Shown one piece after another: positions 4,282 to 61,910 of a stretch of DNA of 64,000 bases. A model generated the notes under the pieces. The model searched no databases and was not told the origin of the DNA. It saw only the letters and a program-made list of their open reading frames with translations. Position numbers and translations under genes: made by a program. Origin of the DNA: Adineta ricciae (Eukaryota > Rotifera > Eurotatoria > Adinetida > Adinetidae); contig CAJNOJ010000131.1 in the NCBI GenBank assembly GCA_905250025.1, positions 186,001-250,000 on the forward strand, in the 5' to 3' direction. Position 1 is the first letter of the stretch; every line of letters begins with the position of its first letter.

Positions 4282-6390
4282 ATGATTATTTGTTGTCCCA
4301 GTGTTTGTATTAACATCAGTCGATTGTCCACATTCGCCTGCCTTCTAGTACTCATTTCAATTAGTCAATTCAAATTGGTGCTAGTTGTCGATGCCGCTCC
4401 TTCATACTCCACAATTACATTGAACTACACACGGATATCCGACGAGACAGATAATCAAACAACAACAAATAATTGTGTAGCTGAAATAATTGATGAAACA
4501 TTATATTATTTTTCTGTAGGCTATCGAGCATTTGCTGGCGCACTCATTGTTCCAATAACAATTTGTGGTATATGTGGAAACACTCTTGTCATTTATGTTA
4601 TTAAACATTATCATTCATTGCGTATCACAGGCAATGTTTTTCTTGCCTCGCTTGCAGTCGCTGATGTCGGTGTGAGTACCTTGGCAATGACATTTTATGG
4701 TCTACAATTATTGTATGGACGATGGTTATTTGGACCGGTGAGTAAAGTACTAATTCTTGATACAATATGCGCAGTTGCTTTTTCTCCGCTCTTGATTGCA
4801 AAAACAGATATTCGAAATTGTTGTCTTTCTTCGTTCTTTTTTCCCGTTGACGAAAATAAAGTGTACGAAAAAATGCATCAGGAGACGAAAAGAATCAACA
4901 AGCCATTTATTTTCAAATTCTATATGCAAATGAGAAATTTACTAAAACAAAAAGAAGAAGGTTGTAACTAAATCGAATATCTAGCCGCAACAATGGAAAG
5001 ATTTTTCCTTGAAGGACGGAAGAAGATAGAGTACTATCCTGTTGTTTCTTTTTTACAATGAAATATGTAAAGATGAATAAAAGCTTTTTATCCTGCTGAT
5101 ATCAGCTGGAAATTTTTCATGAAACTAAGCTCTCTTTTAGTTTATGTGTCGCTTATGGTTCTCATGCGATGTTTTATTTTCAACTGCGTCGATTATACAT
5201 TTAGCTTGTATATCTCTCGATCGTTATCTATCTATAGTACGTCCATTTGAATACGAACGTTCGTCATCTGAACGTCGTCGTTACATCATGATATTCTTCT
5301 GTTGGTTCGTGTCAGCCTTACTTTCGTTTATTCCGATATTTACTGGTATATATACAACAAAAGCACAACGAAATATTATCGATTGTTTAGAATATGTGCA
5401 TGGCCGATGTATATTCAATGTTAATCAAGCATACGCGATCGTTTCATCGTCATTCTCGTTTTGGGTACCTGGTGCTATTATGATTATTATGTATGCGATG
5501 TTAATACGAATTGCTGATAAAAAGGAACGTGAAGCTTATCAAATCATGGGCGGCGTTGCACAACGTCGACGCACTTCGCAGCAAAATCACTATGCACATC
5601 GACGTTCAAGCGACAATCATCATGGGAATGAATCGACATCAACGAGTCAACAAGTGCAAGGCGAAAAACAAATCACTGCTGTTCCAACGAGTAATGGGCA
5701 TTCGAAGAAGTTTCGTCGTCAACGAAAATTCGATAGTCTCGACAAAGAAATCAATCGGAAAGCATCAGGTGATCTATCCGGCAGTTTATTTGATTCACGT
5801 AATAGTCAAATGAAACATTTGAGACGTGAACGTCGAGCCGTTAAAACTCTAGGTTCCATCATGGTCGCGTTTATTATTTGTTGGCTTCCATTTTTCATTC
5901 GTTATACCGCATGCGAGCCCAATCGTTGTAATTGGAAAATTGCACCTCTTATTTCAGATATCGTGTTTTGGGTTGGTTATTTCAATTCAATGATTAATCC
6001 GTAAGTTTACTTAGAAACAGATCTTTCGTTTGAAAAAGAATTTTTTTGTTTCTTTGCAGATTTTTGTATGCTTTTCATAATCGAGACTTTCGAATTGCTT
6101 TTCAAAAGACGCTTAGTCGGTATTTCGGATGTTGTCATCCGCGTCGAGCAAGTATTGCTAGTTCGACGATCCTATCACCTCCAACACCCAGTGGTGATTC
6201 ACAAAAAAGTTCGATCAACATCAATCGATTTAAAAACAGCCAAATTCTACGATCAATCGTCAGTATACATGATCGACCGACGACGCATTCGAATAATCTT
6301 AAGATCGGTGACTCATCTGTCGGAGTGTCCAACGGCAATCTAACAGTTCGAGATAATAGTCTCTCATCTAAACGTAATTCATGTCTTTAA
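4282..6390 (+). CDS. Aminergic G protein-coupled receptor (octopamine-beta/serotonin-like)
   Basis: Three exons (4282-4737, 5141-6000, 6060-6390) join in phase to about 548 residues. The N-terminus has a hydrophobic signal-like stretch ending near residue 38, followed by possible N-glycosylation sites. Seven-helix landmarks are visible: GN in helix 1 (N100), LAVAD in helix 2 (D128), C155, the amine-binding Asp of helix 3 (D162), DRY at 179-181, a Ser-rich helix 5, CWLPFF in helix 6, and a GYFNSMINP helix 7 completed across the last intron by FLYAF. Asp3.32 with the helix 5 serines is typical of receptors for biogenic amines, and the helix 7/8 stretch resembles octopamine-beta receptors most. 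The third intracellular loop is long, basic and Ser-rich, as in Gs/Gi-coupled family members. The first intron is 403 bases, long for this window. The exact ligand is inference. Confidence 0.88.
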
Positions 6391-12392: not shown

Positions 12393-14234
12393 ATGATGTT
12401 GGCGAGATTTCTCATCAGACGAACTTATCGTTCCAATCCGAATACCATTCAATGGAATAAAACCATTCGAACTCATCAAATCAATGGAAATTATCAACAA
12501 GCTCTGAAGTTGTTTCAAATTGGTATTGAGAAAAACACATTCGAACCCAATTCTCTCACCTATTTCACAATGCTTGATATTTGCAAGGAGCTGAAATCTC
12601 TTCCAGTTGTTCGTACTATTCACAATTTAATCGACGCATCAAAAAATCGCGACCGAGAAGTGTTCTCCGATCCACGAATTCGATCGTCATTAATGGATGT
12701 TTATATTAAATGTCAAGACATCGATAGTGCCTATCGAGTATTTCAATCGATGTCTGAACGAAATGTGATTGATTGTTGTGGTTTAATGACTGGTTTGAAT
12801 CAACAAGGCAAATATGAGAAAACATTGGAACTATCAAAACAAATTCCATCAGCGATGAAATACTCATCAGCACTTCTTTGTAGTCTGATCCTACAGGCAT
12901 GTGGTGAATTAAAACGATATGACGAAGGATGTGAAATTCATCGAAATGGACAAAAATTTCTTCCTGAACATAAGATTTTCATGAATGAATTGATGAATTT
13001 CTATTTAAAACTTCATCGGGAAAAACAAGCATTGGATATTTTCGAAACCTATTCAACTCATCAAACAGTTATTGATTACAGTTTGTTAATGAAGTACTAC
13101 AACCGTCACTATCAACCAGAGAAAACCATCGAGTTGTATTTTCGTTTGAAAAACAATACACAGATCCCAATGGATCATATTATTTATGTTCTTGTTTTGC
13201 AAGCCGTCGCAAATGGATGTTGTTTACAAACAAGTGAACAAATCTGTCAAGATGCGAAAAAGTTTGGAATCAATATGGATGTGGAAAATGCCTTGATCAA
13301 CATGTACGGTAATTGATGAGATTATAGGACTCACAAAATCAAATGTTTCCCTCCACGAAGAGACATCATACTTAAGTAACTTTTTCTGTTTTATTTAGGA
13401 AAACTGGGCGATCTCGATCAAGCAGAGAAAGCGTTCCATTCAATGGCGAAGCACAACATTGTTTCATACAATATATTACTCAATCTTTATGGTCTTTACC
13501 ATCAATCTGATAAAGCTTTGAAGATCTACCAACAAATGTGTCAGCAGGGCCATCGACCGGATGATAAAACATATGTTTTGCTACTTCATGGATTAGGCAA
13601 AACACCAAGTAAGATTAAAGATACAAAACGAATCTTTGCAAGTGTTGAAGAGAGTAAACGTGGACCAATGTTAACTTCGGCGATGATTGCCGCATTAATC
13701 CGAGCCGAATTATTCGATGAAGTGAATGATTTGTTAAAGATTACACCCAAAGAACATATTTTGTTCTATGCAATCAAAGCTAATCTCACCGACAAGTCTC
13801 ACGATAAATTTACCTATCCAACAACTATAACCAATGAACAAGTAGCGTTATATGACTTGTTAATGAGTAATATCTATACGTATGCCGGTTTACACGATCG
13901 GTTAACAAAAGTCGATGAGATTTTGTATGAGAATTCGACATTGAAGGCAATGTTGTCTTATTCTTGGCTGGAAAACTCCAATGGACGAATCGAATATTTC
14001 AAAAGTGAAAATTCCGAATTGAAAAATTGTGAACATACAGAGAAACTCGCACTCACGAATGCATCGAATCAGAATTTATCATCGATTTTGATCGGAAAAA
14101 ATCATCGCATGTGTAACGAATGCCATGAATATTTTAAAAAATTCTCGATTAAAAGAAAAGTTTCTGTACGTGATTCCACTCGTTTTCATCTATTTTCAAG
14201 TGGAGTTTGTTCTTGTGAAGCTTCTTCATCTTGA
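12393..14234 (+). CDS. Plant-type pentatricopeptide repeat protein with C-terminal E and DYW-like deaminase domain
   Basis: Two exons (12393-13308, 13399-14234) give 583 residues. The N-terminus is Arg-rich with no acidic residue in its first 20 positions, like a mitochondrial presequence. Residues from about 20 to 440 read as helical PPR repeats of the PLS kind (stretches such as NVIDCCGLMTGLNQQGKYEK and NIVSYNILLNLYGLYHQSDK). An E-like segment follows (LMSNIYTYAGLHDR). The C-terminus matches the DYW cytidine deaminase: HTEKLA with zinc-binding H518 and catalytic E520, CNECH with C544 and C547, and RFHLFSSGVCSC with H569, C576 and C578. The final DYW tripeptide is replaced by an SSS ending, the PG box is degenerate, and the section between the PG box and HTE is some 40 residues shorter than in plants. 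In land plants such proteins edit organelle RNA from C to U. The start lies directly behind an acceptor-like AG at 12391-12392. Confidence 0.9.
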
Positions 14235-14304
14235 TACGACTTGTCTTTCATTCATTTTTGTTCTAGATATATTCTATGAAGAATTATTAATTCGCACTCG
14301 TAAT
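14235..14304 (+). promoter_or_regulatory. Very short PPR-DYW/AKT spacer with acceptor site
   Basis: The PPR-DYW stop codon ends at 14234, and a pyrimidine-rich acceptor (TTTTTGTTCTAG, AG at 14265-14266) follows after about 30 bases. The AKT start is at 14305. There is no AATAAA and hardly room for a promoter. The arrangement fits a downstream cistron receiving a spliced leader. This is inference from spacing and sequence only. Confidence 0.55.
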
Positions 14305-16824
<2,520 letters not shown>

Positions 16825-25724: not shown

Positions 25725-26973
25725 TTAATATGAATTGATTTTACTGTGAATCCAGTTGAGATATGTACTTGTACGTGTATAAACCCCCGGATAGTTGGAA
25801 AGAGCACAATCAGCTCCAAAACTAACAACACCAGATAGATACCATTGGCCATTAGTATTATACATCAAAGGACCGCCGCTATCACCTTGACAACTATCTT
25901 TTCCGCCAACATAAGGCATACTAGCACCAATTTGTCGCTGAACATTGAAATATGCCGGGTAAGCTGCTTTGGCTTGCGAATTTGTTACTTGAACAGTCAC
26001 TTGTCGAAGAGCATTGGGTAAGGCACTACCTTTGTGTATTGAACCCCAGCCAGCGACTGTAACTGGCATTGATTCTTGAGGATCCGGTCCTGGCAAGCAA
26101 ACCAAACTAACATAGGCATTCAATTGAACTGGTTGTGCTAAACGAAGAACAGCGATGTCGTGAGCTTGAGTAATCGAATTGTATTGTTCATGCATAAAAA
26201 TACGTGTAACACCGATGTTCTGTGTACGACCGTTGTTCTTATTCGATCGTTCATGTAAACCGGCAATGATACGAAGTTGACTACTACTAGCTGATGTCAA
26301 ACAGTGAGCAGCGGTGAGCACGTGACGGGTATCAATCAATGTTCCACCACAAAAGTGATCACGTACTTGTAATGAAACAATCCATGGCCATGAATGTGGT
26401 ATTGCTTCCACTCCTCCAACAATACGTTGCGTAGCTGGAGTAATAGATTGACGACCGCAAGTGTTAGTTGTCGGTACCAATGGTGTTGTTGTCGGACGAG
26501 GAGTAGCTACTGTGGCGCTAGTTGATTGTCCGATACTTGTCTTCGAACAACAGAAACGTACCCTATAATCTGTACATACTTTCTGTTTGTATCCATCTAC
26601 TTGTTGATTTAAACATAGAAATCCGTCTTTGAGAGTCAAACGAAACAAATCACCAGTTTGCACTGGAGATGCTCCTTTCACGGTTTGCGCCTAGAATCAT
26701 TCTCATTCAACCTAATGACATCAGACAATTTCTTTCACTTACCTCAACAGCAATAGGTGCAGGACACATAAACAAAGGAAAATTTTGTTGCAAATGATTC
26801 GTTACTTCAAAATCACCTTGTGAACTACTTGGATCACTCGAATCGAACCAGGTTGTCCATTGATTATTTCCTGAACAAGTTGACTCAGTGAAACTTGACG
26901 GATCAAATAGACCTTGCGCAAATACGGCAATGTTGAACTGCAGTATCAGTAATATTATTCCGATAGTAAGCAT
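25725..26973 (-). CDS. Secreted trypsin-like serine protease with N-terminal WxxW (Mucin2_WxxW) domain
   Basis: Two minus-strand exons (26743-26973 and 25725-26690) give about 398 residues. I chose the ATG at 26971-26973, which opens a signal peptide (MLTIGIILLILQFNIAVFAQ). The next 90 residues match the cysteine-containing WxxW module of mucins and CILP: WTTWFDSSDPSSSQGDFE, then CPAPIAVE, QTGDLFRL and a closing YRVRFCC. A Thr/Pro/Ser linker follows. The S1A protease starts at RIVGG and has TAAHC (His), DIAVL (Asp) and GDSGGP (Ser), so all three catalytic residues are present. Cleavage before IVGG would activate it. The specificity-pocket residue six before the serine reads as Asp in GGKDSCQGDSGG, which predicts cleavage after Lys/Arg. 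Expected to be secreted; substrate unknown. Confidence 0.93.
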
Positions 26974-36000: not shown

Positions 36001-39000
36001 TTGAATTTCGTCTCGAGATGTTCTCTTTTAGTACAATGGTTTCGAACAATTATGTATTAATTATACCAATGAACGTCTTCAACAGTTCTTCAATCATCAT
36101 ATGTTCGTCTTGGAACAAGAAGAATACAAGAAAGAAGGAATTCAATGGGAATTTATTGATTTCGGTATGGATTTACAAGCGTGTATTGATCTTATTGAAA
36201 AAGTAGGACATCGCCTTTGGAAGTTTTCATTTGATTCAAGAGAGACTTTTAGCCGATGGGTATTCTGTCCATTCTTGAGGAAGAATGTATCGTACCCAAA
36301 GCAACAGATAAGACATTTGTTGAAAAACTTTATAATAATCATTTGGGTAAACATCCACAATTCGGTAAACCCAAACCATCGAAAGGCAAAGCTGAAGCAC
36401 ACTTTGAAATCCATCATTATGCTGGTTCAGTGCCATACACCGCCACAGGCTGGCTTGAAAAGAACAAGGATCCTATCAACACAACGGTGTATGTTACGGA
36501 AAACCGAGCGGAACGCACTAATTATTGCTTTCTCGATTTCTTTTCAGTGCTGGTCTCTTCGCCAAGTCGAAGAATGCTATGTTAAGTCATCTTTATGCCG
36601 ATGTCGCTGAGGAAGAAGGCGGTGGTAGCAAAGCCGGAGTGAAGAAGAAGGGTGGCAGTATGCAAACCATCTCAGCTACACATCGAGTAAGCTCAGCCGA
36701 GGTTCTGTTTCGTGAATAATCGATTGGAATTTAAGGAACAATTGAACAAATTGATGACGAACTTGAAACAAACGCATCCTCATTTTGTTCGCTGTATTAT
36801 TCCAAATGAAGTGAAAACTGGAGGCATTCTCGACTCACACTTGGTTCTCCATCAGCTTCATTGTAACGGTGTTCTCGAAGGCATCCGTATCTGTCGCAAA
36901 GGCTTTCCTAATCGTATGATCTACTCGGAATTCAAACAACGCTATTCCATTTTGGCACCCAATGCTATTCCAAAAGGTTTTGTTGACGCGAAAAAAGCAA
37001 CGGAAAACATTCTCAAAGATGTCCAACTATCCGATGAATTGTACCGATTGGGAACAACGAAAGTGTTCTTCAAAGCAGGTGTCTTAGGTCAACTTGAAGA
37101 TATGCGTGACCAAGCTCTATCGAAAATCATCGCCACTTTACAAGCGCAAGTTCGCGGTTATATCATGAAGAAAGAATATAAGAAGATGTTAGAAAAGCGC
37201 TTAGCTTTATCAATTTTACAACGAAATTGTCGTAAATATTTGTCGTTGCGCAATTGGCCATGGTGGAAATTGTACACGAAAGTCAAACCCTTGTTATCTG
37301 TTGCACGACAAGAAGAAGAAATGAAGAAACTTGAAGATGAATACAAAGCATTGAAGGAAGCTTTTGAAAAAGAAGAAAAACTACGAAAAGATACCGAAGA
37401 AAACAACGCGAAATTAATCAAAGGTTGACAAATGAATATCATATTCCATCGAAACTCTACTTGTATTTTTCTTTGTAGAAAAGAATGACATGTATTTGCA
37501 ATTGGAAGCTGAACGTGCGAATACTTCTGGCGCTGAAGAACGTCTGACCCGACTGATCACCCAAAAAGCCGATCTCGAACAACAAATCAAAGATATGGAA
37601 GAACGTATCAGCGAAGAAGAAGACGCAACAGCCGAATCCAATGCCAAGCGAAAGAAACTTGAGCATGATATCGATGGTTTGAAGAAAGACATCGATGACA
37701 TGCGATTAAGCTTACAAAAGGCAGAGAATGAATCGAAAACGCGAGATAATCAAATTCATACATTACAAGATGAGATGGCTCGTCAAGATGAAACAATCGC
37801 TAAGATCACGCGTGAACGTAAACGTCTCGAAGAACAAAATACGAAAACGACGGAACAGTTGCAAGCGGAAGAAGATAAAGTGAATCATTTGACTAAATTA
37901 AAGACGAAACTCGAGCAAACTTTGGATGAACTAGAAGACAGTTTAGAACGTGAGAAGAGAAGCCGAGTTGATTTGGACAAATCGAAGCGAAAGTTGGAAA
38001 CCGACGTGAAATCTCTACAAGCAAGTTTGGAAGAGGTCGAACGGGCAAAACGAGAATTAGAAGAAACAGTTAAACGTAAAGATCAAGAAATTCAACAAAT
38101 GGGCGGACGACTCGAGGATGAACAAGGACAAGCGACAAGTCTCGGCAAGAAAATCAAAGAAATGCAAGCACGTATTGAAGAGTTGGAAGAAGAGCTGGAA
38201 AATGAACGGCAATCACGATCGAAGAGCGAAAAGCAGCGTGCGGACTTGGCGCGTGAAATCGATGAGATGAACGATCGATTAGAAGAAGCTGGTGGTGCAA
38301 CGTCGACACAAGTCGAAATGAACAAGAAACGTGAAGGTGAATTGGCCAAACTTCGACGAGATTTAGAAGAAGCCAATCTTCAACATGAGGCCACTGCTGC
38401 CCAATTACGGAAGAAACATCAAGATGCTGTCAGTGAAATGGGGGAACAAATCGATCAGTTGCAGAAACTGAAAAACAAATTGGAAAAAGAAAAACAAAGT
38501 GTCAAATCGGAGTTGGATGATTTACGTTCACAAGTTGAACATTTTCAAAAGGGTAAAACAACGGCAGAGAAACTCTCCAAACAACTCGAACAACAATTGA
38601 ATGATATTCAAATCAAACTTGAAGATAGTCATAAACAAATCAATGATTTCAATGTCCAGAAATCGAAATTAGTCAATGAAAACTCTGATTTACTCAAAAC
38701 TGTCGAAGAATTTGAACATCAAGTTAGTCTCTTACAGAAATCCAAAGTCGTCTTACAACAACAAGCTGACGAAGCCAAACGTGCTTTAGAGGACGAAACA
38801 CGTGGCAAAGGTTCAGTTCGTATGTATCAAAATGATCCATTGACAAAAGACTAAACGAAACATTTACATTTTAGATTCACAAATTCGTAATTTAACAGCT
38901 GATCTCGAGCAAACACGCGAACAACTTGAAGAAGAACAAGAAGGCAAAGCTGAATTTCAAAGACAAGTTGCAAAACTTCAAGCTGAAGTTCATCAATGGA

Positions 39001-59509: not shown

Positions 59510-61910
59510 TCAGTCTCCTTTAGGTACGACGTGTTGATTGATAACATCGAAGATTTGCTTTCGTTTGGATGTGCCCATGGAGTTCTGTTCGCACCAGTTG
59601 GCAAATGTGGACGATGATTGGAAATTGATCGTTGGCGAACGATGCGCAAAAAAACTTTCGATATATTGAAGAATAAACAAACCACAATCGAAATAATTTG
59701 GTTGTTGGGGTACCGCAGCTTCGATAGTTGGAATTGTATCTAAATTAAAGATTTTGCGTCCTGACGAACCCATTGGTAAAGGTTTCTTATGATCATATTC
59801 AAGTTGAAGAAATTCTCGTAGTGTAGCAGCTACACGATTCTTCGGACCAGCATGTAACGAATCGAAAAGAATTATTGCTGGTGTTTGAGACCGATCTTTG
59901 CGATTTTGATCAGTTTTCGTCAGATTTTCGTTACCGGTGCTGACTTCATCGGCTTCATCAACAATTTCGATGCTTTGCGCATTTGATTTCGATCTTGTTT
60001 TGTCACCAGTACCGTTGGTCACATCACCGATTTTAGCTTTTTTCGAATTCGATCGTTTGTCAACCATCTCCTCATCATCGTCGCTAATTAAGTCGCCTTC
60101 CGTAGGAACATAATTAGGAAATTTAATAAGTACAATATACCAATGAGCCGTTTGATTTATTGGTACGATAAGATAATCCTTCGAAAAGATATCCACGTCA
60201 CGGAGCCATCGTTTCACTCGGCTGTATCGCCGTTCGGCTGGTCTTTTCAAACGTACGAGAAAGATAGAAAAGGTAGGTGAAATTTAACTTTACTTACGAT
60301 ATATTTAGAATATCATCATTACTTTTCCGTGTCAATCGCGTGTAGAAAAATGAATTGAATAAATATGTCCGTTGTCGATCTTCCTCCGAAAGTTTCTCGT
60401 AAAATACGTATCTATTCAAGAAAAAAAGACGAATGTGAAGTTGAAACTGTGAAATGAACTATTACTGCAGATAAAAATCGATAATATTATCATTGAGAAA
60501 TTCACCCTCGTTTAAACACATCAAGTCATCACGAGATAAATCAAATCGAATTGTATTGTTATTCAAACCAACTGTCTTGGAAGTTCTAAATAAGGAAAAA
60601 CTTCAAGATTATCAGTGTTTTCATCTGCGTAAACCTATTTTCACGCTCGACTTCACTCATGTGTCCAGGCACACCTAGAAGGCGTCCTTCAGTACGAATA
60701 TCTTACAAATCATTGTCGTTGAGCACGAATGGTGTTGTTATGGAGCCTAGTGCTGATAGTTTAGCAAACCGAGATAGATTGTAGAGTTCTTGAGCTTTTG
60801 ATGCACTGATACAACAAATATTCTATGAAAACAACGTGATAATAACACGATGAACTTAGACAGAAAAGGTCTCTCACTGTTGTAGGAGATTTTGCTTTTA
60901 AATATTGATAGATTGATGCAATAGTCACGTTTTCCACACTTGAGTCGACATGTTTCAAACAGAAAACAATTCGGCGTCGTTTTTCATCTAAAAAGTTCGC
61001 AAAAACAAACATGGCTTTTCATCGAATGACGCACCAACCTTTCGAAGTCGGATCGAATTGTTTGCCATGTTCATCTGATGATGGAATAAACTTTGCAAAA
61101 AGTTCAGCAAAGTCGGGCTTTGCTTGAATAAATGCCGCTGGTGGTTGAGATTGAAACGAGAAATAGAACGATTGAATGTCTGAATACGCTAATTTGATAT
61201 TCAAATTTTCCATGAAACTACCTGAAAAATGTTTGATAAAGATCGAGATTTTCCATGAGAGCACACGCGTTACTTTTTAATTTCAATTCGAATTCGATAT
61301 CTTTCATGAGAATCACCTCTGATTCAACATTAAATTCCACCATACCAAAACGAACGGCTGAACAGGAGAGTTCGTACGGTTTCTTAATCAAATCCGTCGT
61401 TTTTATAGACAATTCAGGAATACGAATGATATCTTTTCGATGAATGATCCAATCGGATGTTTGACTCTTAGGATCTCCATTAACTATTGCAGGTGTTGCT
61501 TGTTTCACAGAAGTTATCACCGGCACCACGCTCGTTTGATTTGAGTTACTATCATTATTATCATCATCGTCGTCACTCAAACAAATGACTGTCGGAGAGG
61601 AAATGAGTGGATGATGCAATTAAAGAAAGTCTTACCTTCTGGTTGAGGTTTGCATTTTTTCGCCATTTGACCATTGGTTATGATTAACTCATGACTAATT
61701 CGCTAGAGAAAACGATCGGATAGAGAAAAAAAAATGAAAGAAATTGATTTTATGTTTACCTTTCGACTGTTATAAAAAGATACTGTGGGGATATTACTTG
61801 TGGACGACAGATTGATAGTGTGAAGTTCTGAAATGAAAGATATTCGCTTTTCGACTGTGAATCAACGGTTTTCTTACGCAAAGGAGAAGACTGATGAATG
61901 GAATTGAGCG
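59510..61910 (-). CDS. SENP7: SENP6/7-like SUMO-specific protease (5' end approximate)
   Basis: A multi-exon minus-strand gene. The C-terminal exon (59510-60242) carries the Ulp catalytic core: AHWYIVLIKF (His), IILFDSLHAGP (Asp), PQQPNYFDCGLFILQYIE (Gln and Cys). The core is split by a charged, low-complexity insert of about 80 residues, as in SENP6/7 and yeast Ulp2. Upstream exons at 60298-60411 (SEEDRQRTYLFNSFFYTRL), 60466 to about 60580 (GEFLNDNIIDFYLQ), and others to about 61.87 kb supply the N-part. VICLSDDDDD near 61.58 kb fits a SUMO-interacting motif. Enzymes of this type trim poly-SUMO chains in the nucleus. The first exon and start codon were not found, so the 5' limit is a guess. 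Confidence 0.85.

Follow-up and report, generated by a model that had tools for sequence, protein, structure and literature searches.

A reduced PPR-DYW protein in the bdelloid rotifer Adineta ricciae and a signature of probable C-to-U editing in bdelloid mitochondrial DNA

Could an animal correct its mitochondrial transcripts with C-to-U editing factors of the plant organellar type, and what would a member of that family with a curtailed deaminase domain do there? This question is raised by a gene on the forward strand, at positions 12393..14234, of a 64,000-nucleotide stretch of the genome of the bdelloid rotifer Adineta ricciae (assembly GCA_905250025.1, contig CAJNOJ010000131.1, positions 186,001 to 250,000; this whole stretch is referred to here as ‘the window’), where an earlier note had recognised a pentatricopeptide repeat (PPR) protein with a DYW-type deaminase end. 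We argue that bdelloid mitochondrial mRNAs probably undergo C-to-U editing of the plant kind, by a large PPR-DYW family acquired horizontally and at sites that are gained and lost fast; the window gene would be a conserved member of this family, without a PG box and with a target common to all bdelloids. As to the window protein itself, we favour, with somewhat less confidence, the role of a mitochondrial site-recognition factor in this system, in which its own deamination would be weak or assisted by a partner.

The protein is there as the earlier note claimed, but its coding sequence is interrupted: open frames of 307 and 263 amino acids (aa) are joined across a 90-bp intron, giving a two-exon gene that encodes 583 aa after splicing and in which ...NALINMYG is connected to KLGDLDQAEK.... 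The splice pair was picked among several frame-keeping GT..AG pairs for its consensus acceptor and for the intact repeat it yields, and it is based on reading frame, consensus and orthologs rather than on cDNA. Pfam identified PPR_2 (97.7 bits, cut-off 30), PPR (67.4 bits, cut-off 25) and DYW_deaminase (PF14432; 49.5 bits vs. a gathering cut-off of 24, E-value 3.7e-13, model positions 18-90 of 93) in the protein; the last of these matches is far above chance, and the PLS-style repeats and the DYW-type end described earlier are thereby borne out, with the C-terminus inside the DYW family. All seven residues that had been named (H518, E520, C544, C547, H569, C576, C578) are present in the spliced frame, and the catalytic zinc site HxE...CxxC and the second zinc site H..CxC are both complete. 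The top solved relative is the synthetic PPR-DYW protein 9kfx (E 6.7e-63; the alignment falls into two pieces, aa 19-512 and 503-578), along which the alternating P, L, S repeat order follows through (repeat parse by eye). The E-like region aligns to 9kfx too, but its predicted local distance difference test score (pLDDT) is <50 over residues 118-168 of a structure model made for exon 2. This model (mean pLDDT 76; predicted template modelling score, pTM, 0.55) retrieved 9kfx first in a fold search (E 3.1e-11, TM-score 0.43 over the query) and also matched the DYW domain of OTP86 (7o4f, 7o4e; E ~1e-4; TM-score 0.22-0.28 over the query), low scores of the kind to be expected for a poorly joined model. 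The N-terminus had been called Arg-rich and suggestive of mitochondrial import; its first 30 aa are indeed basic (6 R/K, zero D/E, maximal hydrophobic moment 0.47), and no acidic residue occurs over these 30 aa in 8/9 sequences, while the import itself stays a candidate.

A protein search with the window protein found 76 sequences, including four named bdelloid orthologs that span 99-100% of its length (Adineta vaga, 78% identity; Rotaria sp. Silwood2, 72%; A. steineri, 72%; Rotaria sp. Silwood1, 71%) and five shorter, unnamed relatives (52-66% identity); among the remaining sequences, every one with a named source comes from a land plant (~20-29%). All six sequences that reach these sites (window included) have HxE and the second zinc site, and five of the six have CxxC. 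The loss of the catalytic Glu in relatives, an objection raised by the earlier note, was looked for, and Glu was found in every sequence covering the position. Orthologs are 68-74% identical in the DYW region vs. 74-83% in the PPR tract. The residues by which the PPR repeats choose their bases (those of the last two repeats judged from the ortholog alignment) are P1 N/N, with one N/D among nine sequences, and S1 S/N and P3 S/D in 9/9; because these residues are nearly identical across orthologs, they suggest one conserved RNA target.

The window gene is accompanied by many relatives. Across its own assembly (130 Mb, 1,033 contigs) we obtained 127 DYW-family hits, which, when those within 1.5 kb on one strand were merged, form 81 loci on 48 contigs, the window locus included; 14 control genomes gave 0 hits, the eight named ones being prokaryotes and hence uninformative about animals. 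The reading of paralog domains covered about 25 of the 81 loci (window included). HxE and CxxC are present in all 21 distinct first halves that were readable, and 18 of these match from model position 1-3 and thus have the PG-box region; the tails are mostly DYF or DHF and singly DFF, EFF, EHF and DNF, and one second half (L030) has no CxC in its frame. PPR repeats lie in several exons upstream of the paralog DYW domains, and stops, which may reflect introns or decay alike, fall inside many of the DYW hits of the assembly. Judged from sequence, then, the genome holds a large DYW family with domains mostly complete among the loci read, and the window gene is a reduced relative of it. Exon 2 of the window gene has no second copy in the assembly among the candidates scored; its five other matches there are PPR or DYW paralogs with 27-41% identity. 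In a tree of 45 DYW domains, the phylogeny that the earlier note had proposed, 22 canonical paralogs form one clade (ultrafast bootstrap, UFBoot, 99) and the window protein groups with five orthologs (66); plants are not monophyletic in this tree, which took in no protist sequences and says little about the origin of the family. Several DYW loci cluster on single contigs (e.g. C170, C461, C311 and C322), and a second one lies on the window contig (C131:135028-135369), ~65 kb from the window gene. The P repeats of the paralogs often have Gly at position 5 (YGAMM, YGQMM), which is not known to belong to the plant PPR code; the matching of code to sites was therefore confined to the window protein.

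A complete mitochondrial genome (~13.6 kb, with ~6.5% C on the coding strand) forms the end of contig C55 in the assembly (C55:464485-478188). It is joined to a nuclear contig behind a single N, and the start of the circle is repeated at the contig end; the attachment is probably a scaffolding artefact. The cytb of this genome was compared with the best 120 of 7,976 matches, of which we took 86 for bdelloid (7 bearing a bdelloid name) and 34 for outgroups, and its cox1 with the best 120 of 7,999, of which 16 (1 so named) were taken for bdelloid and the other 104 were mostly insects; the assignment to bdelloids rests on identity, most entries being unnamed and metagenomic. A strict class of changes that nothing but T>C can produce (L>S, F>S, Y>H, W>R), counted at conserved F/L/Y/W/C/I/M/V columns, made up 74/230 departures in bdelloids vs. 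0/55 in outgroups for cytb (Fisher 9e-9) and 26/82 vs. 12/229 for cox1 (Fisher 6e-9); kinship is ignored in both values, which overstate independence among related sequences, and filters varied across counts. With F>L added the counts become 83/230 vs. 3/55 and 41/82 vs. 28/229, respectively, but F>L can also be reached by T>A/G, hence the strict recount without it. The T>C changes are drastic ones (cytb and cox1, respectively: L>S, 42 and 5; F>S, 13 and 7; Y>H, 3 and 6; W>R, 2 and 5; L>P, 4 and 1), and strict departures occur in 34/87 cytb and 10/17 cox1 sequences; the majority of the cytb departures (134/230) are other single changes, chiefly the conservative Y>F (41), L>I (31), I>V (20) and V>I (14). 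The cytb motif PEWYFLFAYCILR recurs in five solved cytochrome b alignments, with A in place of C as the one difference; in bdelloids, S, L, P, H or R stands at several of its places, nearly always one T>C change away; the first F of the motif is L in 4/34 outgroups. On a tree of 72 bdelloid cytb sequences and three outgroups, from which the tested columns were left out, 17 changes fall on position 274, ten on 273 and nine on 280, with one to five on each of nine further tested positions. The systematic scan covered cytb and cox1; nd1, nd4, nd5 and cox3 were viewed against solved structures, and nd2, nd3, nd4L, nd6, atp6 and cox2 were read by eye only. These results, as an excess of T>C over other animals and over neutral sites, suggest that bdelloid mitochondrial DNA (mtDNA) carries a signature of C-to-U editing.

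Individual sites of A. ricciae can be predicted from the same alignments (codons numbered by open frame). In cytb, the putative edits are S17>L (TCA), where L is found in 74/74 bdelloids with that column and mostly F in outgroups; S273>F (TCT), where 75/85 bdelloids have F and five have S (A. vaga among them) and F is found in 30/34 outgroups; and L356>F (CTT), where F is found in 78/79 bdelloids and 33/34 outgroups. In cox1, L384>F (CTT) would restore the F of 104/104 outgroups and 13/16 bdelloids, and S119>L is a weaker candidate at a position that is variable among bdelloids. In A. vaga, the candidate codons of cytb are 127, 219 and 273. Codon 387 of cox1 encodes Ala in 16/16 bdelloids and Val in 104/104 outgroups; a change of GCT to GTT fits C-to-U, but with G at -1. 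The ND1 motif PRSRYD and the ND4 motif SSP, picked out by eye as sites, were rejected, their Ser codons being AGA and AGG.

The cytb entries also differ by source and length. T>C occurs in 2/1,748 conserved cells of 17 jgi-only entries with contigs below 1,500 bases, roughly the length of an mRNA, and in 71/6,884 conserved cells of the 56 entries that are not jgi-only (p 0.0004 by permutation over sequences, 17 short jgi-only vs. the other 62, kinship ignored), while other changes are no rarer in the 17 (45/1,748 vs. 140/6,884). T>C is frequent in nine short contigs (<2,000) of other origin (19/1,068), six long jgi-only contigs have 4/744, and one of the 17 short rows (P0104) has Ser at cytb 273, a column outside that filter. 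This grouping was chosen post hoc, takes transcript origin from length and draws on a contig entry for 79/87 cytb rows; so read, short jgi-only contigs (e.g. P0109, P0126 and P0131) may be edited transcripts, and if they are transcripts, edited RNA already sits in databases.

Beyond the structure, family and orthology of the window gene, the paralog family and the mtDNA signature, we infer import, RNA binding, editing and a partner, as follows. The window gene, which is nuclear, conserved across bdelloid genera and single copy here, encodes a PPR protein of PLS type whose DYW deaminase domain is reduced. This protein is most likely imported into mitochondria, where it would recognise an editing site by binding a single conserved stretch of RNA, as part of plant-type C-to-U mRNA editing. 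The editing system would be carried mainly by the ~81 DYW loci, those read having mostly complete domains, and would correct T-to-C changes that are tolerated in bdelloid mtDNA. Because the zinc sites are kept but the PG box and the tail are absent, the window protein would probably edit weakly, or with a partner supplying the deaminase, rather than alone.

Several observations weigh against this proposal. It reads editing from DNA and protein alignments, and its edited bases are predicted ones. The PG box is absent from the window protein, in which the Pfam match begins at model position 18 and the match to a plant-type DYW profile (17 domains) at 21 of 101, and ~40 residues including the PG box are missing relative to 9kfx between the E2-like segment and HTEKLA, in agreement with the shortening that had been estimated against the plant kind. 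The C-terminal D-Y/F-W is likewise absent: the window protein terminates in CSCEASSS, the SSS end having been noticed before, and none of six sequences has a DYW end, the five others that reach this far carrying QISS, EVT, EISS, EVT and EGSP after CSC. In the A. vaga ortholog (I4U23_026644), Ser replaces C544 and eight residues before HxE are missing, which might be a catalytic loss in that species or an error of the gene model. On the tree of 45 DYW domains, the clade of the window protein and its five orthologs forms a separate long branch that does not join the canonical paralogs. Among the cytb sequences, 53/87 have no strict T>C departure at the tested columns. Finally, the search for a target by the PPR code, as the earlier note had advised, was unsuccessful: the code of the window protein (five constrained positions) fits seven cytosines of its own mtDNA vs. 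~5.7 expected by chance, an expectation worked out by hand from base composition, and none of the seven lies at a predicted cytb or cox1 site.

The main rival to our reading is a pure RNA-binding role, in which the window protein would be a former editing factor whose PPR tract now stabilises, processes or helps to translate one mitochondrial transcript, with a DYW remnant that is structural or decaying and with any editing left to the paralogs. Such a role would sit well with the missing PG box and DYW tail, with an A. vaga ortholog that is devoid of the first Cys of CxxC, and with base-choosing residues largely conserved across genera; however, HxE and the second zinc site persist in 6/6 sequences and CxxC in 5/6, and conservation of the DYW region comes close to that of the PPR tract. 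We regard this role as unlikely, though deserving of attention. Improbable, in our view, is an autonomous editor, in which an E2-like hairpin would complete the deaminase sheet despite the missing PG box and the protein would edit its own conserved site. All Zn1 and Zn2 ligands are present for such a reaction, and the exon-2 model places two strands (residues 187-192 and 195-200) just before HxE at 212-214, but that model is modest (see the scores above), and the aromatic tail residue was essential in a moss factor, in which, according to PMC6397227, an F-to-A change abolished editing. The lack of a PG box and of an aromatic tail, together with the zinc Cys lost in A. vaga, makes it doubtful that the window protein itself deaminates, and weak or partner-assisted editing stays our preferred account of it.

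Slightly less probable again is that the T>C pattern of the mtDNA reflects mutation bias, relaxed selection or nuclear copies rather than editing. Transitions are common, and most of the compared sequences are unnamed metagenomic entries. However, the 4-fold sites of A. ricciae mtDNA (n=1,164, counted in stop-to-stop, partly overlapping frames) comprise 17 C, 623 T, 393 A and 131 G; with C this scarce (1.5%) the bias at neutral sites is opposite in direction, and mutation bias does not explain the T>C excess. Furthermore, the T>C changes fall on conserved Leu, Phe, Trp and Tyr, whereas the remaining single changes exchange similar residues, as in Y>F, L>I and I>V, and T>C is borne by contigs of at least 5 kb, several of them mitogenome-sized (40 T>C, in 19/39 sequences). 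A codon reassignment does not account for the pattern either, because several codon families are affected. Contamination of the assembly by plant or protist DNA, to which one might be led by land plants being the named relatives outside bdelloids, has a negligible chance, because the remaining long frames in the window, judged by eye, appear metazoan, the gene contains an intron of its own, and its orthologs in four named bdelloids are 71-78% identical vs. ~20-29% for named plants. Plant-like C-to-U editing in bdelloid mitochondria stays the more probable reading.

DYW-type PPR proteins of A. ricciae and Philodina roseola have already been published (Schallenberg-Ruedinger 2013 as cited in PMC4202320), and rotifers are also mentioned in connection with such proteins in PMC5295000, which agrees with the reports in bdelloids that the earlier note mentioned. 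Among the bdelloid mitochondrial gene sets of PMC3426538, those of A. ricciae, P. roseola, P. acuticornis and H. rosa were obtained from RNA, and those of A. vaga, H. constricta and M. quadricornifera from DNA; editing is not raised in the parts examined of the bdelloid mitogenome papers PMC3426538 and PMC2784805 (the word ‘editing’ was not found in those of the latter), and ‘pentatricopeptide’ does not occur in the main text of PMC4632278, on gene transfer in bdelloids. No report of C-to-U editing in bdelloid mitochondria was found among the papers listed by our literature searches, which were seen as excerpts and in three of the lists comprised the best 15 of 201, 10 of 13 and 10 of 68. As far as these searches go, what is new here is the C-to-U signature of bdelloid mtDNA, the bdelloid DYW-type PPR proteins being already known. 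Apart from a marsupial tRNA, animal mitochondria are not known to undergo C-to-U editing. If our reading is true, an animal group corrects its mitochondrial mRNAs at many sites by a system that is otherwise found in plants and here and there among protists and that it probably gained through gene transfer; where the sequences of bdelloid mitochondrial proteins have been published as translations of DNA, they would contain errors at conserved residues; and bdelloids would offer a natural test of how editing sites and PPR factors settle in a new lineage.

The features of the window gene are collected in Table 1. Just downstream of it, frames at window positions 14264-16824 resemble an Akt-type kinase (a PH domain, then kinase motifs; judged by eye). 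Elsewhere in the window, long frames at 5144-6004, 25725-26681, 36712-38854 and 59510-60250 resemble, again by eye, a rhodopsin-type receptor, a trypsin-like protease, a muscle myosin heavy chain and a SUMO protease, respectively. Rfam had no match within the window, ARAGORN (bacterial code) predicted no tRNA in the window or in region L012 of the mtDNA segment of contig C55, and plasmid records, a collection not aimed at animals, gave no match.

Table 1. Features of the PPR-DYW-family gene, in window coordinates
Feature	Position	Strand	Extent or content	Basis
Exon 1	12393..13308	+	aa 1-305 and first base of codon 306	Splice analysis; four full-length orthologs across junction
Intron	13309..13398	+	90 bp, GTAATTGA...TTTATTTAG, GT..AG, phase 1	Splice analysis
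Exon 2	13399..14234	+	aa 306-583; stop codon 14232-14234	Splice analysis
Basic N-terminus, candidate mitochondrial presequence	12393..12440	+	aa 1-16 (MMLARFLIRRTYRSNP)	Composition
PLS-type PPR tract	12444..13565	+	aa 18-361, intron inside	Pfam and 9kfx alignment; boundaries by eye
E-like region	13755..14000	+	aa 425-506	9kfx alignment; boundaries by eye
DYW_deaminase domain	14013..14219	+	aa 511-579, without PG box	Pfam (49.5 bits), DYW profile, fold match
HxE	14034..14042	+	H518, E520	Spliced frame, orthologs
CxxCH	14112..14126	+	C544, C547, H548	Spliced frame, orthologs
Second zinc site	14187..14216	+	H569, C576, C578	Spliced frame, orthologs

Among known systems, metazoan PPR proteins of the LRPPRC type bind RNA in mitochondria but are not known to have the PLS order or a DYW domain, and an LRPPRC complex turns up low in the fold list of the exon-2 model. 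Outside plants, mitochondrial C-to-U editing with DYW proteins has been reported in Acrasis and paradinids (PMC4202320, PMC11946409); these are protists with reported editing, whereas the editing in bdelloids is deduced from DNA and protein alignments. Nearer in kinship, the published DYW-type PPR proteins of A. ricciae and P. roseola belong to the same animal group and family as the window protein, a likeness drawn from their description rather than from a comparison of sequences, and the canonical paralogs in its own genome have the PG-box region and DYF/DHF-type tails, of which the window protein has neither. From the plant PPR-DYW organellar C-to-U editing factors (OTP86 and moss PPR65, with the synthetic 9kfx) it differs in lacking the PG box, in being ~40 residues shorter before HxE, in having no DYW/DFW tail and in being encoded by an animal gene; with them it shares the PLS repeat order, a putative E-like region, HxE..CxxC, H..CxC and an alignment over the whole length.
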